DNA of 64,000 nucleotides from Spinacia oleracea. Lineage: Eukaryota > Streptophyta > Magnoliopsida > Caryophyllales > Amaranthaceae. A model generated the notes under the pieces. That model did not search any database. It was not told the DNA's origin and saw only the letters and a program-made list of their open reading frames with translations. The stretch lies in assembly GCF_020520425.1 (NCBI RefSeq), contig NC_079487.1, positions 63,976,398-64,040,397 on the forward strand. Reading direction: 5' to 3'. The position numbers were made by a program, and so were the translations under genes. Below, one piece after another: positions 17,596 through 33,744 of this stretch (its first letter is position 1; each line of letters opens with the position of its first letter).

Positions 17596-19526
17596 TCAAT
17601 CGGCTCCACCCTCTTCCTCTACCGGTAAAGAATCACCTAAATCAAACAAGTCTCTAGGCTTATTCTTAACAACATGCCACCACCCTTTTTGTATCTCATC
17701 TTCTATGTAAAAAACTTGTTTTGCTTGAGATGAGAATACAAATGGATCATCTTGCAATAATCGCCCGCTATGCATCAATTTAGAAAAATTGACACATACT
17801 CCTCCATTTGGATAGGCTCTTACACCCCTATAAATGTCTACCCAATCACAACGAAACAATACAACTTTATAATCTCCATAGTAATTTAATTCATAAATAT
17901 CTATCACTTTTCCATAGTACGCCTCTCCATCCGCTTCAACCATAATTCCAGAATTTTGTGTCAAAAGACGATAATCGCGATCCGTGGAAAGGAACTTATA
18001 ACCATTGATCATGAATCCTTTTAATTTTCTACCATAATAATTCAAACCACCCGCCAACGCTCTTCTTAGTTTTCCATCTTCGGTGGTTACATCTATGCAA
18101 TGTACCTACGATGGTACATCATTAAATCAAAATACATTTTTTTCAAACAAAGAATTATTTGTTCACATTAAAAGAACTTAAGTAACCTTATTTTGCAGCC
18201 ACCCTCCAAATTCATTGATGATCCAATTACTTTCATCACTCTCCGTCACAGAATTTCGTAAGTTCATTTGACGCTTCTCCGTTAAAAATTCACTTCATAG
18301 AAGAAGAAAAAACTTAGAGTGGTCTTTAACAATTGATAATTCAAAAGAAAACAGACATAATACTTACTCTAATTCCCCTTTAATCTCATCACAGTGAAGT
18401 AAAACCTAGCGATGAGCTTGCTTTAAGGTTTTGTCATCAAGGCGAACGCTAACCTCCTTCCCAATAACTCGACCACCAGAATTAAACAAGTAATCATTGG
18501 GATTTGGAATGTCATCATCCATACTTTTAGGTATGGTTGAAGATAGTCTTAACACCTTGAAGATATCTCGAACAAAACCTAATTGTCTCCTCTAAAAGGA
18601 AGCCTTCCGCAATAGATCCTTCAGGTTGGGCTTTATTGGTTACATGTGATTTCAAATGGGACAAGTACCTTTTAAATAAAACATTTATACTTAAATTATA
18701 ATAAATAAAAAGTATTTAATGAAATAATATAGCTCAGACATATAAGATATTAACCTTTCAATGGGATACATCCATCTGTATTGCACTGGTCCACCAAGTT
18801 TAACCTCCTCCACTAAGTGAATCAACAAATAGACCATGATTGTAAAAAATGAAGGCAGAAACTCCTTTTCCAACTCACAAAGAGTTAAAATAATTCCATC
18901 TTGAAGACCATCTAAATCATCTAGATCAATACTGGTGGAGCACAACTTCTTGAAAAACGAAGATAATCTAGCCAACAAGTCAATCACCTTTGTAGCATTA
19001 GAAGCTCTTAAGGCGACAGGGAGGATATCTTGCATTAGAACATGGTTGTCATGACTCTTGAGGTTAATCAACTTCCTTTGCTTCATATTCACACAACTAG
19101 AAAGGTTGGATCCATATCCATCCGGAACTTTAAGTTTCTGCAAAACATTTAAGAACCTCTCTTTCTCCTCCGTAGACATAGAATAAGAAGCCGGAGGCAT
19201 GTATTCGCTTCCATTATGATTGGTCTCAAGCCAAAGGTGAGGCTTTATCCTCCAATTTTTAAGGGCTACTCGATCATCCCTACTATCTCTACTCTTATCA
19301 TTACCTAGAAGAGTTCCCAAAATATTCTCAGACACATTTTTCTCAATGTGCATAACGTCTAAATTATGCCTTAGAAGATTATGCTCCCAATACACCAAAT
19401 CATAAAATATGCTTCTTTTTGTACCATAAGCATTTTCATCTTGGACATCATTGTTATTATTGTTATCATTATGACCTCTTTGTCTACCTCTTTTTTTTTG
19501 TGGTGCCTTCGAATTTCCATAAACAT

Positions 19527-19531
19527 ACTCG
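19527..19531. repeat. 5-bp LTR target duplication, left copy
   Basis: ACTCG directly precedes the left LTR. The same five bases follow the right LTR at 31132-31136. Confidence 0.92.
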
Positions 19532-20997
19532 TGTGAGGGGGTCAAAAAAGCACGAGGCTAATGCGTGACCTCGTCCCTCGTGGGTGTGACGATTCTTTTT
19601 TATTCAATCAAGTGTAATTGGATTTCCTGTGAGTTTACACCCAATTGACTAGTAATATAGGAGTTGCTATTCAGTTTTTAACGACAATGAGAAAAACTGA
19701 CAAAACCCGATTATCGTGACATAAAGGGAGTGCAATTATGTTTGACCATGACGGCCGTAGGTTCCCTTGTGATCCCTGGTGGTGGGGATCGCTCAACGTA
19801 CACCTGCAGGGTAGAGATTGAGGGTTCGGGGGACTTTAACTACCGAGAGAAGTATTCGCTCTTCGATAACTCCAGAGGCAGGATATCCTTACTAGCTCAG
19901 CATAAATAATTGAAGGGACATGCGTTAACTATTAAACTAATCTGAGTTGATTTTAGCAATATGCAACATATAATACTAGATCGATCGCGATTATCTGATT
20001 TAAATAGCATTAAGGGACCTAGCATGATAATCCAATTTCCCAAAAATATTATATTTGTTAGGCGTGGTAGAACAATCAGATTTAGTTAGTTTAACAGTTC
20101 ATAAAAAGGGCGAGGAAAGCAATTAAATCATAGAAAAGGGACACATTACGACGCACCTTTGAGAGGTGCGTCACAGTTCTCAGAAAACTAACCACTTTGA
20201 CTTTGCTACCTTTTTATTTAACGAATCTCAAATTACGGGACAGGATACGTTCTGTTCGATTTATGGATCGATTGCGACAGAACGCGTGAACAATTTCGCA
20301 GCGTGAGGCTTAGGCTAGGGGTTGGAGTCAATACTCAGAATATGAATTGTGTGTTGTGATTTCACGTCAAACTTGGGCTATATTTATAGAAAAGAGTTTG
20401 TGGAAAGATAGAATTGCAGAGCTCTAATCCACGAAGAATTAGGAAAAAACACGTACCAGGTATTTTCAGCGCCTAGGCCTGGGCGCCGAAGATTTCGGCG
20501 CCCAGAGCCAGGCGTTGAAAATGGGGTCTGGGCTATTTTCTTAGTCAGATTCGGATTCCTAAAATCCGTAGTGTTTGAGACTTAATCGAGTCTTTTAGTG
20601 CGTATCAATTTCATGACGGAATGCGTCTGGGCCCGTTACGAACTCTAGGCTCGTTAGGATTTTAATTAATACGTAACTCTTATTTCCGAATCATATTAGG
20701 AATAGGATTCTCGCAGTTTTCTATCTCATTTAGGATTTATGTTGGAGTGCAACACCTAATTCTGACAGGTTTCTATCTTTTATGACTTGCCACTTTTAGA
20801 AGCTACCCTTTACGGCAGTTACTATTTTTAGCAGGTTTCCATAAATAGAAGGTTTCTATAAATAGCAGGTTTCGGGTGAAACGAGAAGGGTGATTGAGAT
20901 TCGTTATTTTATAGGAGATGCGTTGTCAAGTGGAGATTTACGTTTTCATCATCGAACCTTTCCCTTTCGGGAATGGGGACAAAAGTAGGTGTCTACA
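19532..20997 (-). repeat. 3' LTR (left copy)
   Basis: Length 1466 bp, TG...CA ends (TGTGAGGGGGTC to GTGTCTACA). It contains the inverted repeat GGGCGCCGAAGATTTCGGCG at 20481-20503. Compared with the other LTR it carries an extra 287 bp (about 20088-20374). Confidence 0.93.
20088..20374. other. segment absent from the other LTR
   Basis: The left LTR contains this 287-bp stretch between TTTAGTT and GGGCTATATT. In the right LTR the same flanks are joined directly at about 30508. Two-base homology (TT) at the junction fits a deletion in the 5' LTR, since the longer form shows no sign of being an insertion. Confidence 0.7.
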
Positions 20998-21624: not shown

Positions 21625-21995
21625 GCGACTAAGGACCTGCGCGGTTAGTGACGCAGACCCCGCCGACTAAAGATGGCGAGCCTGTCCGCTAAGGGTGGAC
21701 ACCCCGTCCGATAGAAGTGGACGAATCTGTTTCGAAATTTGTTTATTATTTTTTGAAAATAAGGACCTACGTGGTTTGCGCCGTAGACCCCGTCGGCTGA
21801 AGATGGCGAGCCTATTTCATTTTGTTTTTGAAGATTCTATTTTTCGAAAACTGAGGACCTGCGCGGCTAGTGACGCAGACCCCGCCCGCTGTGTGTGGGC
21901 GAGCCATGTCCGCTGAGGGTGGACGCCCCTGAATTCGTTTTTCAATTTGGGACTCGCGTGGTTCGTGACGCGATCCTGCCCACTAAGATGGGCAA
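21625..21995. repeat. second tandem array with diverged units
   Basis: At least four diverged units begin near 21630, 21760, 21852 and 21948. They share GGACCTGCGCGGTTAGTGAC-like and GACGCAGACCCCGCC-like phrases and a following GGCGAGCC. It is distinct in sequence from the adjacent array at 21429. Confidence 0.7.
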
Positions 21996-22288
21996 GTTTC
22001 CTACTTTTTTCATCGTGATTTTTTTTTGAGAATGTCTTTTATTCATTCTTGCAAGAGCGAATTCTTTCGAGGGATGCTCGGATTTAGTTGTAACCTGAAC
22101 GTGGGTTGACAACGGGTTTAGACGGACCTTTGTCTTGCGACCGTCTGCTTTCGTGGTTTTGAGCTAGTCTTTACGGCTCGATTTTTGCCACTACTTGGTC
22201 TTTGATCAGATGACCATGCACAAGTGTCAATGACGACCTTTCTCTGAGGTCGAACCTGCTTTTTTTTTTTGAGATATCCAAACATGAG

Positions 22289-23906
22289 ATGGTGTATGGC
22301 GTAGTCCGGGAATGTGATTTTGATTGTGCGCTCCTTGTTGGAGTATATTTTTTCGCGAGCCCCCAAGCACTGTGGCTCGTCGGTCGGATGAGTTTGGCGG
22401 TGCGCGACTCGGACCCGAGTAGACGTCACTTTGTCATTACATTAGCGGGAGTGGCGCGTTTGATCGAGGTATGTGCCTAGACTTTCTTTTGTTTTCTCGC
22501 TTTTATCGGGCCTCTTTTTTTTTGATGTTTTATTGTCTTTTCCTTTTGCAGCTGTGGGCCTTTGAGCACTTACCTTGGCTGGCTACCCGAAAGGGGCAGA
22601 GGCCTTTGGAGTACCCTGCCGGTCGTCGTTGGGGTTGGAAGAAGAAGCTGACAGTGCGTCCACCGCCCGATACCGTGTGGGATCTCATTCGGGACGGGAA
22701 CCCTGAGCATGTGCAGAATCTTATCCTCTATCTCGTATTTCGTCATTCTTTTTATTTTCTATGTGCGAGATCTGACCGTGTTTGTACAAAAACAGGTGGT
22801 TTGGACCCCATGGCTTTCTTTTAGGGGTACTTATGCTTCGGTTAGGGATAGTTATGCCCTGAGCCAGATGCGGGTCTTGGTCGTTGGCCGCCGGGACCCT
22901 GTCTGGTACCTGGGAGAGCGGGTACGTATGCAGATGGTCGGGGCTTTTTCGGTGCCTAGGCCTCCGCCTGCGACCATGCTGTCTACTCGTTCGATAGGCG
23001 AGTCGTGGAGGGTCCACTCGAGGACTGGCGTGCCGGCGACGGAGTTGGTGATAAAGGGAGCTAGCTATTATCAGTTTATCCAGGATTCTCTTCGTCTCCC
23101 GGAGCCTGGCGCTGTAAGTTTCCCTCTCTTTTCGTATTGATTTTAGTGTTTTCATGCTCGTGCCCATGTGTTTACGTCTATTGTGTTTTGTGCAGGAGTG
23201 TCCTGACCCTTCGTTGGGGGGATGGGTGCTTCCCGATGCTCGGATCTCGTATACCGGAGAGAGTGGATCCGAGATTGTGGAGACTTTCCCGGAAGACCGC
23301 GTTTTCCATGCTCCGCTCCCTGAGGGAGTACAGGCGGTATGCACCTTTTATTTGCGCACTCTTCTTATATCTTTCTTTTTTTCTTTTGTTACTAACATTC
23401 CTGTTTCAGGTTCCGACCCGTATGGCCAACGCGATGGTGGGGGTGATCAACCGGTTGAAGTCCGCGTTGGTTCGGGCCCGATCTGCACTTTCTTGCAGGA
23501 GCCCCCACTCTACTCGGGTAATGTGCCCTCTTTTTTTCTTTTGATCTGTACCTTTTGTTTGGCATTCTGTTACTCACCCTCTTTTTGTCTTTTCTTGTAG
23601 ACGGGGGCTGGACGAGCCGGGGCCGACGACGCGGGTCCCTCGGGCGGGGGACACGGTCGTGAGAGAGAGAGGGCATGGCACTTGCCCCTACGGCATCACC
23701 GTTCTGACGTGGGGGTGAGTTCTTCCGGAGAGAGGTACGAGCCGGAGCGTAGGCGACGTTCCATGTCGGTGGCCCGAGAGCCTAGCCCCGAGTTGCAGTC
23801 ACAGCCTCATTTTTGGGGTGATTCTGGCTGGGGGTCCTCATACCACGGGGAGTGGAGTGGATGGACCGGCGAGGCTTGGAGACATGAAGCCGATGACGAG
23901 TCTTAG
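22289..23906 (+). CDS. antisense plant-mobile-domain gene inside the retrotransposon
   Basis: This gene reads opposite to pol. Exons: about 22289-22468, 22552-22710, 22796-23113, 23196-23336, 23410-23517 and 23601-23906. Every intron is GT...AG and falls between codons, and the joined frame is open for about 403 codons, ending at TAG 23904-23906. The sequence LWAFEHLPWLATRKGQR, then VVWTPWL after the second listed intron, is typical of the plant mobile domain (PMD, also called aminotransferase-like) found in host genes and transposons. The tail is rich in Arg, Ser, Gly and Trp (WGDSGWGSSYHGEWSGW) and looks disordered. Such antisense genes between pol and the 3' LTR are known in some Tat elements; their role is unknown. 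The start codon is uncertain, and the usual N-terminal part of the PMD may be missing. Confidence 0.7.
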
Positions 23907-24469
23907 ACTTACCTCCTGTTTTGTATATATTCATTCTTATATTCCGCATGTATATATATATTTTTTTTGCGATTTTTTTTTTGGTGCAAGAATGTTTTGA
24001 GCCTTCCGTGGGCTTTGCTTTAACATATTATAGTAATATTAGCTTTCTAAACCAACGACGAATTCTGAAAAGAGAAAGAATTCCGTAAAAATAATGAGTT
24101 CATACAAGAGTGCACACATATTTTTAGACTAGCCGACTACTTGGGGTATTACATATGCATGTTCACTATTTTTCGTTTTTTGCCGACTCGTGCCATACTC
24201 CTTTGTTGGGCTTGTTCCTGAAAATTCTTGTGGCTTTGTTTTTCATTCTATTTGGTCTTGCCCGTGCATGGGTTAGGGTATAGTACCCTTTGCAATATCC
24301 TTTCTTCTTGATGCGTTGCATGACTTTATTATTTTTTAATTTTTATTGGACCGAATACTTGATAAGGATTGCCTACGTATCTTGTCAGAATCAGGTCGCG
24401 CGTAGTTCTAGATTTTTGAAATTTTTTTGTTGAATTTTTTTTGAAAGGGTGTTCATTACACGTCTGCTT

Positions 24470-24566: not shown

Positions 24567-24653
24567 ACGCCCACACGCGGGCGTAGGAAATATCGGCGCC
24601 CAGGCCTGGGCGTGAAAAATAACAGCGCCCAGTCCTGGGCGTTAAAACATGGT
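24567..24653. repeat. three hairpin units of the GCGCCCAG...CTGGGCG type
   Basis: Three consecutive short inverted repeats (core GCGCCCAGGCCTGGGCG) are separated by AT-rich AAAAATAAC-like spacers. Related units are in both LTRs and at 29113-29167. Confidence 0.75.
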
Positions 24654-24771
24654 CCTTCGCCTTTTTCTACTTTATCGAGTTTTATGCCGTTTGCTTAGAG
24701 TAATGTGCAGAGTGCTTGCTTATGAGTCTTAACGTGTTTTATTAGATGCCTTAACTCCGGACTGAATTTTA

Positions 24772-27081
24772 TTAAATATAGTACTTTTTCAATTGGTCTA
24801 AGTTCGTGAGGTTAGCGAATTCCGCTCCATCTATGTCAGCTAGTTGGACTGCTCCGCCAGGTAGGATGGTCTTTACAAAATATGGTCCTGTCCAGTTAGG
24901 CCGGAATTTTCCTCGAGGGTCCGTAGTAGGTGCGCGGACTTCTTTTAATACAAAATTGCCTTCTTTGATATTTCGAGGTTTGACTCTTTTGTTGAATTTC
25001 CTTGCGATGCGCTTTTGATACACTTGCACGTGATGTAAAGCTCTCAACCTCCGTTCGTCTAAAAGGACGAGCTCGTTGTACCTAGCTTGAACCCAATCAG
25101 CCTCGGGTAGCTTGCTTTCTAGGACGATCCGGAGGGAGGGAATTTCCAACTTGATCGGTTGAACTGCTTCCATTCCGTATACCAAGGAGTAGGGTGTTAC
25201 TCCAGTGGAGGTGTGGATTGAGGTTCGATAGCCCCATAATGCGAAGTGTAATTTGTTGGGCCAATCCTTATAATTTTCGGCCATTTTTTCGATTATGACT
25301 TTAATATTTTTGTTGGTCGCCTCTACCGCGCCGTTCATTTGCGGCCTGTAGGGAGAGGATTTATGGTGTTTGACATGATATTTTTCGAGCAGGTCTTGGA
25401 CTTCGGCCCTAAAGTGGGAACCTTGGTCACTTATGATTTCATGTGGAACCCCGTATCGACAGAATATGTTCTTTTCTAGGAATCGAGCGACATGTTTGGC
25501 CGTTAATTTTGCATAGGAGACTGCCTCTACCCATTTAGTGAAGTAATCAATTGCGACTAAAACGTACTCGTGTCCCCCTACGCCTATTGGTGTTACCTTG
25601 CCGATTATATCTATATCCCAGGTGGAAAAGGGCCATGGAGAAGTGAAGGTGTATAGTTCTGAGGGAGGCAAATGGTTAAGGTTACTGAAGATTTGGCATT
25701 TTGGGCAAGTTTTTACAAAGTGATGGCAATCGGTTTCCATAGTGGTCCAATAGTACCCTGAGCGGGATATTTTTCGGGATAGCATTTTTCCGTTCATATG
25801 GGGTCCGCACACGCCGTTATGGTATTCTTCCATTAGTCTTTGGGCTTGGTTTTGGTGGACACAAAGTAACTTGATTTTATTCGGCGTGTACTTGTACAGT
25901 TCTCCCAGAATTATGCTATATTGTGAAGCGAGGAGGCGTAGGGCCTTTTGTGCTCGCGGGGAGGTGTTTGGGGGGAATTCCCCACTTGTTTTGTAACGAA
26001 GGATGTCCGTATACCATGGTTCTTCTTCGGTGTTTTCAGGTTCGGAGTCTATGGCACAGCAATAAGCCGGCTCTTTCCTTCGCTCGACCCGAAGGGTCGT
26101 CCCGTCCCATTCATTCGGGATGTTGAGCATTGAAGCTAGCTTCGCTAGTGCATCCGCGAATTGGTTGTCGTCTCTTGGTAAGTACGTATACTCGATTTTT
26201 TCAAATTGCTCGACTATTTGGTCTAAGTGAGCTTGATATTTTGAGAGACTAGTGCTTCGGACCTTCCATCTTTTGGATATATGGTTGATTATTAGGGAAG
26301 AATCCCCGAAGACTTGTAGATGTTTGACTCCGAGGCTAACTGCGGCCTCTAGCCCAACTATGCAGGCTTCGTATTCGGCGGCGTTGTTTGTGGCCTCGAA
26401 GTCAAGTTTGACGGAAATTGGTATATGGGCCCCTTCGGGACTGACTAGGAGAACTCCGACGCCGCATCCTTTCTGGTTGGACGCGCCATCGAAGTATAGT
26501 GTCCAATAGTCGTTTCGTATCATCAGAAGTTCCTCGTCAGGGAGGAGGTAAGCTTCCGTGGTTTCCTCATTCGTGGCATGATCGGCCAGGAATTCGGCTA
26601 CCGCTCTTCCTTTGATTGTTTTTTCTGGCATGAATTTTAGGTCGAATTCTGAGAGCATGACTAGCCACCTGGACAGGCGACCATTTAGGGCGGGCTTTTC
26701 GAAAATGTATTTTAAGGGGTCTAGTTGTGACACTATATGAACAGTGTGGGCCAATAGGTAATGTTTGAGTTTTTTGGATGCCCAGACGAGGGCGAGGCAG
26801 GTTTTCTCAAGTTCTGTGTATCTCGTCTCGTACTGTATGAACTTCTTGCTCAAGTAGTAAATGGCTCGCTCGGATCCATGTACACACTGTGAGAGCATAG
26901 CTCCCGCTGCAGTATCCGTGACGGTTATGTATAGGCGTAAAGGGATTCCAGGCAAAGGCGGGGAGAGGACGGGTGGTTTGCTTAGATATTCTTTGATTTT
27001 ATCGAAGGCAGTTTGGCATTGTTCATCCCATTCGACTTTTTCTTCTTTCCTTAATTTTTTGAATATTGGCTCACAAGTCAT
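24772..27081 (-). pseudogene. retrotransposon pol: RNase H, second RNase H, integrase
   Basis: This is the longest open block (769 codons). Near the start is the reverse-transcriptase-linked RNase H. The second RNase H domain shows YFDGASNQKGCGVGVLL, ATNNAAEYEACIVGL, FGDSSLI and the terminal DALAKLAS, with its acidic residues present. The integrase has the HHFVKTCPKCQ zinc-binding part and the core DIDIIG, ISDQGSHF and NGAVEATNK, retaining the D, D and E. A second RNase H copy is characteristic of Tat elements. The frame runs in phase with the reverse-transcriptase block upstream but is separated from it by a TAG at 27139, where related elements have a glutamine codon. Confidence 0.9.
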
Positions 27082-27138
27082 AGTAAGCTTGGAAATGAAC
27101 CTACTAATGTATTGCAGCTTTCCTAGGAAGCCCCTTAT

Positions 27139-27678
27139 CTATTTTTTAGTTTTTGGTGGGGGCATTTCGGTAATGGCTTTGATCTTGGATGGGTCAATCT
27201 CGATTCCTCGCGTACTAACAACATATCCTAGCAATTTTCCAGAGGTTACCCCGAACACACATTTTTGCGGATTTAGTCTCGTGTTATATTTCAAGATTCG
27301 GGTGAAGAACTTTTTAAGTGTCGGGAGGTGACCGTGCCGGTCTTTAGATTTGACGATCATGTCGTCCACATAGACCTCGATTTCTTTGTGTATCATGTCA
27401 TGGAGTAACGTGGTGGCTGTTCTTTGATAGGTGGCCCCCGCGTTTTTCAAACCAAAAGGCATTACAGTGTAACAATATGTATCCCATGGGGTAATGAAAG
27501 CTGGCTTTTCCATGTCTTCTTCTGCCATGAGTATTTGGATATATCCAGCGTACCCGTCCATAAAGGAGAGGAGCGCGTGCTCTGCGGTGTTGTCTACTAG
27601 TATGTCAATGTGAGGTAGAGGGAAGTCATCTTTGGGACTGGCTTTGTTGAGGTCTCGAAAGTCTACGCACATTCGCAC
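27139..27678 (-). pseudogene. retrotransposon reverse transcriptase
   Basis: The block encodes the reverse-transcriptase palm: MCVDFRDLNKASPKDDFPLP, FMDGYAGYIQI, the FGLKNAGATYQR stretch and the catalytic YVDDMIVKS. It is interrupted before and after. Upstream, near 27698, a frameshift and a TAA separate it from the linker block. Downstream a TAG separates it from RNase H. It would not give a full polyprotein. Confidence 0.9.
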
Positions 27679-27757
27679 GCGTCCATCTTTTTTAAGCTAC
27701 GGGAACAATATTGGCCACCCATTCTGGGTAGTTGGAGACTTTTATAAAGCCGGCGTC

Positions 27758-28687
27758 TTATTGTTTAGTGACTTCTTCTTTTATTTTCAAGGCTATCTCT
27801 GGTTTGAGCCGCCGTAGCTTTTGTTTTACTGGCGTCATTTTGGGATCTAGCGGAATTTTATGCTCAGCGATTTCTCGATCTATTCCTGGCATGTCTTTGT
27901 AGGACCAAGCAAAGACACCCTCGAATTCCCGCAAAGTGGAGATTAGATCGGCCTTTTCAGTGGGAGTTAAGGTGAGGCCAATTTTAATGATTTTAGGATT
28001 TTCTTCTGTTCCAATATTTACCGATTCTGTGTCCTCAATTATAGGAGTTTTGAGTTCTTGTTCACTTACAGCTTTTATTAGTTCGGTATATTCCTCTTCT
28101 GGCTCTTTTTCGTGCTCATTAGTGGCGAGACATTCTGCATTATTACTCGGATTTTTAAGCGGCATATACTCAAAAGTTTTGTTTATCTTATTAAAGTCAT
28201 GAAGCATTACATCAAAAAGATCTCCCGGAGTAGAGATTTCCGGCTCTAAACCATTTTTAGGAGGGGTTACAATTTTGCTAGGTTCGGACTCGGAGTCAGA
28301 CTCGGATTCAGACTCTAATTCTTTGTACATCGGACCCTCTCCCGCAGATATCTTGAACTTCATCCCACGAGCATTAGTCCATTTGAAAGTCTTGCGCCAC
28401 CCTCGTTGGATTTGGTCATCTTTTGAGGGTGATGGAGCGATCAATTTAGTAGGATCGAACACTTCATCTTGAAGAGCTAATGCCATAATTTCTGTTTCAT
28501 GCTTCGCTCTTTTCTTTTCTAACCCAAACAATAGCCCGAAAGCATGTGAGTTGGGGAGCGTTTTTGGCATAGCACGATTCTTTGGGGCGAGTGGCCTTTG
28601 AGAACGTAAAGGGTCGTGTCCCAGAGCATGCATCTCTTGGGTTTGTGCGACCTCTAGGTATAGATGTTCGGGATATGCTTCTTCCAT
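27758..28687 (-). pseudogene. retrotransposon protease-to-RT linker region
   Basis: This 309-codon block is acidic and Ser/Glu-rich in the middle (ELESESESDSESEPS) and ends in the conserved RT entry region (FAWSYKDMPGIDREIAEHKI). No gag or protease active site (DSG/DTG) is visible upstream. A TAA closes it where the reading should continue into AGFIKVSNYPEW of the RT. I infer a deletion of gag and most of the protease. Confidence 0.8.
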
Positions 28688-29933
28688 CGCGTTCCTTGAT
28701 GGCTATCACGGGCAGGTATTCAGGGGCCCTGCATTATTGTTGTGGAGTAGGAGACACATTAGTTTGTTTCGTGAGTCGGTTTTTTAGACATTCTATGACT
28801 ACCCTTAAGTCGGACTAGTATATTTGGACTGCTATGTGTGCACTTTGAACTCTTTATATTTTCGAAAATCTTTGCCCGTGTGACATTCATAATTATTTGC
28901 ATGTTCGATTTTTAGTGCCGAGCATTGTCGTCGTAGGAGGCATAACAACGACGCAAAGAGTTATTAATTTTTTTACGAGTCGCTTTTGAAATCGAGTGCT
29001 TTTCTTACGCCCTCGTAGCAATTCTTTTTACGAACATTTTTTGTGCTACGTATTTTCCTTTCGCGCGGGCACCGAGGCTGCTGCGCCTGACCAGAAGGCC
29101 AAGCAGCAACTTCAGCGCCCAGCGTCGGGCGTGAGAAATTCTGGCGCCCAGCCAGGGGCGTCGAAAATGCGTCCCTGGCTGATTCTCGTTTTCTGTTTGC
29201 GTCTACTTTTGCTTATGCGACTTCGATTTGCGCGCTTGCCTAATAACGTCCTTTACGCGTTGTGCAGCGTTTTGTGGGATTCGTTACAGGCCATCCTGAG
29301 CGTCGCTTATTTTTGTGGCGATCATTCGGGTTTGCGGAACACGTATTTCGGTATAACTCTTTGGCAAATTAGTCTATGAATGTTTGGGCAATTTTTAAGG
29401 TCGTTGGTTTTCTAGGATAGTTTGTCACACACAATCACATATTTCGCTACACATAACTAACATTCATCATGAGGCGATAATAACATGTCATGTAGTTTAT
29501 GATAGGCTTCTATGGGTAGTTATTTGCGCCTGGTTTGGTACCGCTTCTATCGTAGATCCAACACATGCCCCGGTCGAGGTAGTGTTTTCAACAGACGAAT
29601 TTCCCCCAAGAGGCCAACCCGCAAGTGCAAGCCAAGGGGGCATGCAGGCGAGAGGGACCTAATGGGCGAGCGATTGGGTTCGGGATAGGTGTACTACCTG
29701 CACAAGTACCGAGTGGGCAACATGCGCGGCGTATGCACCCCCCTATTGGCGAAAAAAGGTATCCTTAGTCCCAACTCCCGAGGGAGCCGAGATTCGTTAT
29801 GCGGTTCTGCCCGTTCACATTAATATGCTGATTTTTAGGTCGTCCCAACTTGATGGGGAAATAAACGCGGGGTAGGATCGTTTCACCCTTCGGCTATTTT
29901 GATTACCTACAAGCACGAGTATTTCCTTCACTA
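28688..29933. other. retrotransposon 5' untranslated region, gag deleted
   Basis: Between the primer-binding site and the pol linker there is no gag-like open frame on the minus strand. The stretch 29113-29167 carries two GCGCCCAG hairpin units. Confidence 0.55.
29113..29167. repeat. two hairpin units in the 5' untranslated region
   Basis: Cores GCGCCCAGCGTCGGGCG and GCGCCCAGCCAGGGGCG are followed by GAAATT and GAAAAT-like spacers. They belong to the same family as the units in the LTRs. Confidence 0.7.
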
Positions 29934-29951
29934 TCCCCAGTGGAGTCGCCA
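29934..29951 (-). promoter_or_regulatory. primer-binding site, tRNA-Arg type
   Basis: On the minus strand TGGCGACTCCACTGGGGA lies one base inside the 5' LTR. From memory of plant tRNAs it pairs with the 3' end of tRNA-Arg(ACG) with one G-to-A change. It sets where reverse transcription starts and confirms the minus orientation. Confidence 0.7.
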
Positions 29952-29952
29952 C

Positions 29953-31131
29953 TGTGAGGGGGTCGAAAAAGCACGAGGCTAATGCGTGACCTCGTCCCTC
30001 GTGGGTGTGACGATTCTTTTTTATTCAATCAAGTGTAATTGGATTTCCTGTGAGTTTACACCCAATTGACTAGTAATATAGGAGTCGCCATTCAGTTTTT
30101 AACGACAATGAGAAAAACTGACAAAACCCGGTTATCGTGACATAAAGGGAGTGCAATTATGTTTGACCACGACGGCCGTAGGTTCCCTTGTGATCCCTGG
30201 TGGTGGGGATCGCTCAACGTTCACCCGCAGGGTAGAGATTGAGGGTTCGGGGGACTGTAACTACCGAGAGAAGTATTCGCTCTTCGATAACTCCAGAGGC
30301 AGGATATCCTTACTAGCTCAGCATAAATAATTGAAGGGACATGCGTTAACTATTAAACTAATCTGAGTTGATTTTAGCAATATGCAACATATAATACTAG
30401 ATCGATCGCGATTATCTGATTTAAATAGCATTAAGGGACCTAGCATGATAATCCAATTTCCCAAAAATATTATATTTGTTAGGCGTGGTAGAACAATCAG
30501 ATTTAGTTGGGCTATATTTATATAAAAGAGTTTGTGGAAAGATAGAATTGCAGAGCTCTAATCCACGAAGAATTAGGAAAAAACACGTACCAGGTATTTT
30601 CAGCGCCTAGGCCTGGGCGCCGAAGATTTCGGCGCCCAGAGCCGGGCATTGAAAATGGGGTCTGGGCTGTTTTCTTAGTCAGATTCGGATTCCTGAAATC
30701 CGTAGTGTTTGAAACTTAATCGAGTCTTTTAGTGCGTATCAATTTCATGACGGAATGCGTCTGGGCCCGTTACGAACTCTAGGCTCGTTAGGATTTTAAT
30801 TAATACGTAACTCTTATTTCCGAATCATATTAGGAATAGGATTCTCGCAGTTTTCTATCTCATTTAGGATTTATGTTGGAGTACAACACCTAATTCTGAC
30901 AGGTTTCTATCTTTTATGACTTGCCACTTTTAGAAGCTACTCTTTACGGCAGTTACTATTTTTAGAAGGTTTCCATAAATAGCAGGTTTCTATAAATAGC
31001 AGGTTTCGGGTGAAACGAGAAGGGTGATTGAGATTCGTTATTTTATAGGAGATGCGTTGTCAAGTGGAGATTTACGTTTTCATCATCGAACCTTTCCCTT
31101 TCGGGAATGGGGACAAAAGTGGGTGTCTACA
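29953..31131 (-). repeat. 5' LTR (right copy)
   Basis: Length 1179 bp. By hand I count about 20 substitutions against the left LTR outside the 287-bp gap, roughly 1.7 percent. Confidence 0.93.
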
Positions 31132-31136
31132 ACTCG
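31132..31136. repeat. 5-bp LTR target duplication, right copy
   Basis: ACTCG, matching 19527-19531. The TNP2 frame resumes immediately after it. Confidence 0.92.
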
Positions 31137-32464
31137 ACCTTTTCTTGTTCCCTCAATATATCAGTCCCGCTAGGACGAGATGGAGCTTCACCCCACTCGT
31201 TAGTTCCGAACTTCTCACAAAACATGGAACCTTGAGCTCGATATGGGTGATCTGCGGGTAACCATTTTCTATACATACAATAACATATCTTGCTCCCAAA
31301 TCTATCAGAAGGCGTGAAATCTATGCATACTGGACATGCATTGTAACCTTTTGTGCTCAAACCAGAAAGCATTGAATAGGCAGGAAAGTCATTAATAGTC
31401 CAAAGAAAAACCGCTCGTAAATTAAATTTCTCTCTACCAAAAGCATCAAAAGCTTCAACCCCCGTCCACAACAATTTCAATTCATGCACTAACGGTTGCA
31501 GATACACGTCAATATCAATTCCGAGACTTGTTTTTCCGGGAATAAGTGTGGATAAAATGAAAGAAGATGGTTTCATACATAACCATGGTGGAAGTTTATA
31601 AGGAATCAACATCACCGGCCACGTACTATAAGAGGTGTTCATTAAACGATAAGGATTAAACCCATCACTCGCAAGACCTAATCGAACACTGCGAGGGTCT
31701 AATGCAAAATCGCTATGACGCTCATCAAATGCTTTCCAAGCTAAGGCATCCGATGGATGCCTCAAAATCTTCTTATCATGTTCACCCAATCTCTCTGTAT
31801 CATGCCATCTCATCTCTTCCGCTGTTTCTGATGACATGTAGATTCTTTTTAGCCTCGGGATAAGAGGAAAATATCGCATTACCTTAGCTGGCACACTTCT
31901 CTTCAATGTATTTGTATCTCCATCACTTACATCGCCACTCATACCCTTAGTTCTCTTCCACCTTGATGTACCACAAACATGACACTTGTCTTTCTCTAAA
32001 AATTCCCCCCAATACAACATACAATTATTCGGACAAGCATCAATCTTTTCATACCCAAGTCCCAATTCTTTTATCATTTTCTTACTGTAATAATAAGACG
32101 AGGGAAAATCAAGTATTTGAGGAAATGCATCTAAAATTAGCTTTAACAGCATATTAAAAGATTCAATAGACCAGTGATTCATACACTTCAAGTGAAACAA
32201 GTGTAAAAGAAAAGATAACTTTGAAAAATTGATACACCCCTCGTATAATATCTCCTCAGAAGCTTCAAGTAACTTCTTATGTGTCGCATCTTCTTCTATT
32301 GTAGAATCATCATATTCAACATCTGTTTCATATGTCACTGTTTCCTCAATCCATTCATCATCCTCTTGTGCTTCAAAAGTTTGGCAATTGGGAGGCATAT
32401 TAACACTAAAAGCTGATCTTAATAGTCCCCCCATATTATCTCGACCAATAAACCCACTTTGATT

Positions 32465-32874
32465 ACCGGGGAATCCTTCACTAGTACTCCCTCCATCACT
32501 CTCAAACATACGCTGAGCCATATCCCCTTTCCCATGAAAGATCCAATTCTTATAAGACTTATAAAACCCTTTAAACAAAATATGTCTCTCTACTTCATTT
32601 ATCGGAAACCATTTATCCACCTTACAATTCTTACATGGGCATCTAATTTTTCCTAGGACTAGATCTTGCTTGGCAAACTCAATGAATTGCATACATCCAT
32701 CAATATATTTAGGGTGGCTAGTGGGTAGATCGATCCAACTTGTATCCATATCTATATGAAATAAATTTAGTAATAAGATAAATAAGTAATAATATAATTC
32801 ATGTAATAGGAAATATTTTATAAGTGCTTACTAGAACGTTATGATCTTCCTTAGAACCTTCATATAGCATATAA
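32465..32874. repeat. 410-bp direct duplication, copy 1
   Basis: This covers the TNP2 start codon region and its leader. By eye it is identical to 33745-34154. It continues in frame into the transposase. Confidence 0.9.
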
Positions 32875-33744
32875 CTAGTATAGGACCCGTGCGATGCACG
32901 GTTTATATATTTTAACTTTAAGTGCAAAGTTAAATTAATTTAGAAAAAAGAAACATATATAGAAAAATACGTAGATTATTTTATTCTTTTTCACGCATTA
33001 CCCATGATTTCATATTAGGTATAAAAATCAGTTATCATCCTATACTATGAGAGATGTCAATTCTAAACCTGAACCGTTGAACCCGTTGGGTTGGTTCGAT
33101 CGTTTAGAACCCAGACCGTTAATAACTCGCGAGCTGGAACCCAAAACCAGATCCGATTATATTCAACCGGAACCGACCGAAAAATATTAACCCAATTAGA
33201 TTTGAAACCCGATAACAAACCATTCCAGCAACAACCAAAACCGAATGGATCTGAAACCCGTTAATAACCCAATCCGCTTCAATCCGAACCGTTGAACCCG
33301 AGGAAAACCCATTGACAACCCGAACTGTTTTAACCCGTAACCTGCTTAATTGGAACCATTTACAACTAGTAACTCGTTTGATTGGAATCGTTTACAACCC
33401 ATAACCCGTTTAATCCCATTACCGATTTTAAATTCTTAACCCTTATAAAGTTAGTTATTGGCTTTGTCCCAATTTAACAATTTAACATCCCTATATTCGA
33501 TAAATAATCAACTTTTAGCCTGCACATCCGCACCCGTCTATTATTCTCATCCATACCCCCTCCATCAATGATAGGAATGATTTTCATCCCTTCCAATCCC
33601 CGTTTTGAGAGGTGCAAAAGAAAATGCATCCCCTCTTCATCACCCTCCCCCGTGTATCCACACCCGCCTGAAACCCACCCCTAGACTCAACTTTTTTTTT
33701 TTTTAGACAATTTTGAATTTTAAAACTCTATTCTAGAGTATTTG
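32875..33744 (-). mobile_element. non-autonomous Helitron between the 410-bp copies
   Basis: On the minus strand the 3' end has the hairpin CCGTGCATCGCACGG, then TCCTATA and terminal CTAG followed by T, the Helitron 3' signature. The 5' end is TCAAATACTCTAGA if the shared T is included. The interior (about 33050-33495) holds many AACCCGTT-type phrases and may include a further decayed insertion. No Rep/helicase is encoded. Confidence 0.55.

Follow-up and report, generated by a model that had tools for sequence, protein, structure and literature searches.

A probable 5'-truncated, chimeric relic of an antisense plant mobile domain gene in a gag-less Tat-lineage retrotransposon of Spinacia oleracea

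The window, i.e. the whole stretch of 64,000 nucleotides that was analysed (C1:63976398-64040397 of a genome searched over 894,210,420 bases in 242 contigs), contains a retrotransposon on the minus strand, which runs from 31131 to 19532 and is flanked on both sides by a perfect 5-bp target-site duplication, ACTCG (19527-19531 and 31132-31136). Its 5' LTR (29953-31131) and 3' LTR (19532-20997), both on the minus strand, were delimited by a blastn self match and have TG..CA ends. They are 98.3% identical over 1175 aligned bases, and the 5' LTR is shorter by about 285 bp. These bases, at 20088-20372 of the 3' LTR, are present in the LTRs of two other copies of the element, L039 and L046, and were probably lost from the 5' LTR of the window copy by a later deletion. 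With substitution rates of 1.3e-8 and 7e-9 per site and year, the divergence of the LTR pair (K2P 0.0173 over 1175 sites) corresponds to 0.66 to 1.23 million years. One base inwards of the 5' LTR, a primer-binding site was read from the sequence, TGGCGACTCCACTGGGGA (29934-29951, minus strand), which we take to be of the tRNA-Arg type.

The pol region, also on the minus strand, consists of three open pieces: one upstream of the reverse transcriptase without any Pfam hit (27761-28702), one with RVT_1 that ends at a TAG (27139-27696), and one with RNase H, a second RNase H (RVT_3) and integrase (24772-27138). Both stops, the TAA at 27758-27760 and the TAG at 27139-27141, were found, and so was a shift of frame between pieces, as given in a preliminary description of this DNA made from the letters alone. 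In a single pol frame, RT_RNaseH (66-165), RVT_3 (216-335) and rve (503-599) follow one another, with the extra RNase H before integrase that marks the Tat lineage; the LTRs and the 5-bp duplication agree with this assignment, the primer-binding site being read from sequence alone. On these features the element is classed as a Tat-lineage Ty3/gypsy retrotransposon, nested in a CACTA (tnp2) transposon that it splits into two pieces (17596-19526 and 31137-34154). Pfam places Transpos_assoc and tnp2 on the right flank of the retrotransposon, and DUF4218 and DUF4216 on the left, domains that we regard as marks of CACTA elements. Within the CACTA region, 410 bp at 32465-32874 recur at 100% identity about 1.3 kb away (33745-34154), which reflects either a very recent duplication or an assembly effect.

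On the plus strand, opposite to pol, lies a frame of 411 codons plus stop in six exons, separated by five GT...AG introns that are all in phase 0. The preliminary description had reported six such exons, with introns falling between codons, and about 403 codons; the exons and their borders were recovered, and the length was corrected. Exon 1 was reported as 22289-22468, beginning with an ATG at 22289-22291. It is followed by exon 2 (22552-22734), which starts LWAFEHLP, exon 3 (22796-23113), which starts VVWTPW, exon 4 (23196-23336), exon 5 (23410-23517) and exon 6 with the stop (23601-23906), all on the plus strand. A chance frame was ruled out with a search for the longest chain that stays open when up to five T-rich phase-0 introns are spliced out, run also on 100 first-order Markov controls. 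The best spliced chain reaches 437 codons on the plus strand; the minus strand of this stretch yields 148, and no control went beyond 203. Of 68 further tile strands from the window, only one passes 400 codons, and its tile, which starts at 24654, lies inside pol. Searched against the plant mobile domain (PMD) profile PF10536, the window frame gave E = 0.023 and 14.3 bits, below the cut-off of 34.9, and matched profile positions 169-292 of 347 only, which suggests that the first half is missing.

Other copies were searched for with the DNA of 22200-23960, and the best 40 of 3,305 first-look candidates were scored, a sample that leans towards copies resembling the window copy. In 38 of these 40 places the match to the window copy begins no earlier than 22375 (at C3:127134813 it is in two pieces), and L010 is the only place, besides the window itself, to match the query from its first base. 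In L039 and L046, about 1.7 kb separate the LTR-adjacent repeats from the point equivalent to 22375. This upstream part contains a TATA-like CTTTAAATTC, a pyrimidine-rich leader, a candidate leader intron (GTAAGT..CAG) and a start codon, and its codons include the PMD signature FMRWWWDTTNTFHFPWGEMTITPEDYTALTGL. Copies that retain this part are thus longer by about 250 codons, which include the true start and encode the N half of the PMD. Their coding exons measure 840, 183, 318, 141, 108 and 306 nt (the last 300 nt in L039), with phase-0 introns, and encode a protein of 629-631 aa from a gene placed head-on to pol, before the 3' LTR. The protein of the unchanged copy L039 matches PF10536 with E = 1.8e-18 and 67.3 bits. 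The proposal of an antisense, intron-bearing PMD gene in a Tat-lineage element was right, and the profile search is positive for the full family copy and stays under the cut-off of 34.9 for the window copy alone.

The PMD is the only known domain that passes its cut-off in the full family protein; DUF1985 gave a weak match below cut-off (E = 0.0025), and no solved relative was found in the PDB up to E = 1. When the intron positions were compared with those of other PMD families in the genome, the profile borders were suggestive. Within the 40-copy alignment the start codon is present in 32 copies, all five introns have canonical borders in 30, and the splice dinucleotides, taken site by site, are kept in 37-40; start, splice sites and frame are together free of lesions in only 4 of the 40. 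Complete copies would have an antisense promoter of their own and produce a spliced mRNA from it. The introns would persist since the genomic RNA is the opposite strand, so that retrotransposition leaves them in; the suggestion in the preliminary description, that they may survive as this RNA is not spliced on the antisense strand, is a reasonable one.

The 5' end of the frame in the window copy has another origin. Copy searches assign 21920-22386 (plus strand) to leader DNA of a sister subfamily, B, which has taken the place of the antisense gene's true 5' part; the proposed ATG lies inside it and is not the gene's own start, and the first 29 codons of the reported gene are, on this comparison, B leader DNA. 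The stretch 21920-22380 is a separate high-copy repeat, found in 39 other places at 96-98% among the best 40, and 22320-22386 is 99% identical at 38 other places (best 40). With the joint as query, only the window and L010 contain it whole among the 40 best places, and the matches of the other 38 stop at 22386. In the B copy L058, of which 951 bases were read, 50 bp match the window up to 22386; the sequence then diverges and continues with TATATATAGGG and another antisense start codon. Since the B leader is upstream of B's own TATA box and start, it would be non-coding in B copies.

The window copy therefore matches subfamily B on the 3'-LTR side of the joint and subfamily A beyond it, the switch falling inside or just after GCTCGTCGG (22375-22383), a 9-nt homology block common to A and B at the junction. 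Because of this switch it has lost the true start, 746 of the 840 nt of coding exon 1, the N half of the PMD and both candidate promoters; copy alignment places the exon 1 remnant, 94 of 840 nt, at 22375-22468 (plus strand). A possible origin of the joint is a template switch from one element RNA to another while the minus strand was being synthesised; this synthesis would run from the 3' LTR into the joint region. Taken together, the locus is likely what remains of an element-encoded antisense PMD gene, a relic that is chimeric and truncated at its 5' end, in a Tat-lineage Ty3/gypsy element that lacks gag. As a separate observation, L058, the only B copy read, differs at 700-951 in its antisense start region (MSIPTFSLQRTV...), which has a TATATATA box of its own, so that antisense genes may not be the same in the sister subfamilies; one fragment of 40 residues gave no Pfam hit.

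The junction is identical in the window copy and L010, as would be the case if both had inherited one old recombination instead of undergoing two events. We consider such a single event somewhat the less probable course. In the A part the two copies differ by K = 0.045, against a mean of 0.040 for random copies, with one exclusively shared base, and in the B part they are 89% alike, whereas the window copy resembles 39 B places (best 40) at 96-98%. As the two are close in neither part, recurrent switching at the GCTCGTCGG block is possible, and recombination among copies could blur this comparison. If the joint was nevertheless a single event, the chimeric form moved after losing the first half of the gene, as K = 0.045 exceeds the 0.017 of the LTR pair.

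The open frame beside a broken pol had been read as a possible sign of selection. In-frame stops occupy 32 of 23,682 codon cells of the antisense gene (40 copies) and 15 of 5,608 codon cells in the last 222 pol codons (26 copies, one of them partial, 4 of the 30 loci sampled for the pol 3' end having no match). The density is about twice as high in pol (P = 0.039), which leans weakly towards the contrast between gene and pol drawn in the preliminary description. For the window copy itself, the 381 retained codons should contain 0.5 stops (P(0) about 0.6; none observed), and for 1,287 pol codons the expectation is 1.7 to 3.4, with 2 observed. An open frame beside a broken pol is therefore to be expected and is unremarkable, and these counts give no sign of selection in this copy. 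The other suggestion, that the damage to pol may be recent, fits the LTR divergence of K = 0.017.

These data bear on the reading that the gene is intact and has been kept open by selection in the window copy. Its six exons are indeed open and its splice sites all canonical, but the gene's own start, the full domain and a candidate promoter are gone, 22289-22374 is foreign to the gene by copy comparison, the frame is no more open than expected, and the codon changes private to this copy among the 40 comprise 10 nonsynonymous (N) and 4 synonymous (S) ones. We regard this reading as highly improbable, and the term intact is not appropriate for a chimeric relic.

The absence of gag, also reported before, holds for this element: gag-prot was not found in it, and the interval in which gag would be expected (28703-29952) has no minus-strand ORF of at least 90 aa. 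It is a shared form, not damage to the window copy. When the 40 best places for the query 28300-29960 were scored, 13 (window included) matched at full length and 19 more across the join of pol and leader, so that 32 of 40 were unbroken there. The remaining 8 match only from about 28845-28851, and gag would be present at this gap in those places. The gag-less form thus appears, from these matches, to be widespread among copies; only the window copy and L029 link, by coordinates, an antisense-gene copy to a gag-join match. A gag-less form is also described for some Retand clusters (PMC11963269).

Selection at the level of the family was assessed by sorting the single-base codon changes of the 40-copy alignment into classes according to how many copies have each change. 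The neutral expectation was built from identical base changes in identical CG, CHG or CHH contexts with 2000 simulations, and multiply changed codons (34 singletons, 1 doubleton) were left out. Singletons comprised 202 S, 378 N and 28 stops, with an N/S ratio to neutral of 0.80, and are not wholly neutral (11 of 2000 simulations reach the observed S). Doubletons comprised 49 S, 51 N and 1 stop (ratio 0.54). The 86 variants carried by three or more copies comprised 58 S, 28 N and no stops, with a ratio of 0.25, and 58 S was reached in none of the 2000 simulations; the singletons differ from this shared class with a Fisher P of 1.3e-8. The shared-class ratio is 0.17 in the PMD (codons 107-387) and 0.38 elsewhere. 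From exon 1 to exon 6 the shared S/N counts are 31/9, 8/2, 7/8, 1/0, 2/2 and 9/7, so that the signal comes mostly from exons 1 and 2. In the 26 copies of the pol comparison, the shared class counts 39 S and 16 N for the antisense gene, and 2 S and 4 N for the pol 3' end, the latter too few for a positive control. Shared variants per site are as frequent in introns (32/380) as at third positions (55/630, P = 0.91) and more frequent in introns than at first plus second positions (37/1260, P = 1.5e-5).

According to these patterns, the antisense protein was under purifying selection while the family multiplied. The constraint supports the frame and a protein function in the lineage that produced copies, and not selection on any inserted copy. 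The earlier proposal that the frame was kept open by selection can thus be retained for the family before insertion, where the shared ratio is 0.25 and the comparison of N and S among copies shows a depletion of N, and is to be dropped for the window copy. The passage from near-neutral private changes to strongly constrained shared ones suggests that the protein mattered for spreading. A functional antisense transcript, acting as dsRNA or in antisense regulation with the frame being incidental, was also considered, as antisense RNA with possible siRNA roles has been discussed for plant LTR elements (PMC7264820). It is very unlikely here: both the constraint at codon level, which ends at the exon borders, and a PMD match far above the cut-off point to a protein.

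PMD ORFs in Tat elements are already known. Among Ogre elements, which belong to this lineage, 57% have a PMD, in an extra ORF with PF10536, as counted from getorf ORFs of at least 250 codons (PMC6317226). Like Ogre, the window element has a second RNase H between RH and INT and a PF10536 extra ORF. Antisense ORFs before the 3' LTR have also been described (PMC7264820, PMC11963269). In Retand they carry Transposase_28 (PF04195), and a Spinacia oleracea cluster (with gag) is among those listed; ORFs of at least 600 bp were counted, and shorter ones only for Transposase_28, introns not being mentioned in the passages on these ORFs (PMC11963269). The full-length family protein of the window element, by contrast, had no match to Transposase_28 up to E = 1, and on its antisense ORF the element is unlike Retand. 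Among the matches listed by full-text searches, no paper reports that an antisense extra ORF of a plant LTR element is spliced or tests one for selection, and the spliced antisense anatomy and the selection test seem to be new in detail. Surveys of uninterrupted ORFs would see at most the first coding exon of the gene, 280 codons. A review from 2020 called for the study of antisense and spliced transcripts (PMC7264820), and the extra antisense ORFs of Tat elements have so far no assigned function.

The possibility that a host PMD gene was recently captured with its introns by the element was weighed against the same data. The introns are kept and open PMD frames exist elsewhere in the genome, but a tblastn search of the window frame against eight strong PMD loci gave nothing better than E = 0.1. 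Moreover, the 3' part of the gene is found in 38 other dispersed places and one more chimera at a mean K of about 0.04 (best 40), and Gypsy-encoded PMD-A clades are spread over the angiosperms (PMC5418596). A recent capture is on this account improbable. In addition, a cluster of strong PMD matches in long open frames was noticed at C4:141.7-143.7 Mb (L001, L004-L008 and others, over about 2 Mb).

The PMD proteins described so far include clades found only in Gypsy elements (PMD-A1/A2) and the host PMD-C proteins MAIN and MAIL1, which are needed for the silencing of transposable elements in Arabidopsis (PMC5418596). The element studied here is likened to the PMD-A1/A2 clades by the presence of a PMD in a Gypsy element alone, and any role of its protein is putative next to the silencing by MAIN and MAIL1. 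By analogy with these distant relatives, the protein may act in trans in the nucleus and regulate the expression of the element. Counteracting host silencing is the role that we judge the most likely, tentatively and with less than even confidence; as the host relatives silence transposons, the role of the element protein is directly testable. A comparable case is VANC21 of VANDAL21, an element-encoded anti-silencing factor with many motif copies in the element's own non-coding parts (PMC6419827). VANDAL21 is, however, a DNA transposon, and the PMD protein has no known relation to VANC21.

The element also contains a palindromic module. With up to two mismatches, GCGCCCAGNNNTGGGCG has 12 matches in the window, both strands counted, where 0.01 are expected, and all lie inside the element. 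The units (CGCCCAG..CTGGGCG) are spaced exactly 29 bp apart and lie in non-coding parts of the element: as doublets in the 3' LTR (20469-20514), the leader (29115-29160) and the 5' LTR (30603-30648), and as a triplet, equally spaced, between the antisense gene and pol (24567-24641). One weak single match lies inside pol. Units are also present upstream of the candidate antisense promoters, both in A copies and in L058, the single B copy that was read, a doublet being located about 25 bp upstream of the TATA-like site of the antisense gene. Comparison among copies gave no clear signal of constraint on the module, with 0.014 minor-allele cells per site against 0.020 around it and 0.087 shared variants per site against 0.068; the case for the module is that it recurs in places with differing flanks. 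Binding of the palindrome by the PMD protein is a conjecture. It is a rather remote extension of it that the protein would be a sequence-specific regulator, which recognises the doublets and lifts the PMD-dependent silencing by the host in the manner of VANC; if so, the host silencers MAIN and MAIL1 and the element protein would be opposed relatives. Throughout the genome, exact GCGCCCAGNNCTGGGCG has 20,592 forward and 20,686 reverse matches, which often mark one and the same site, and its reversed control has 0.
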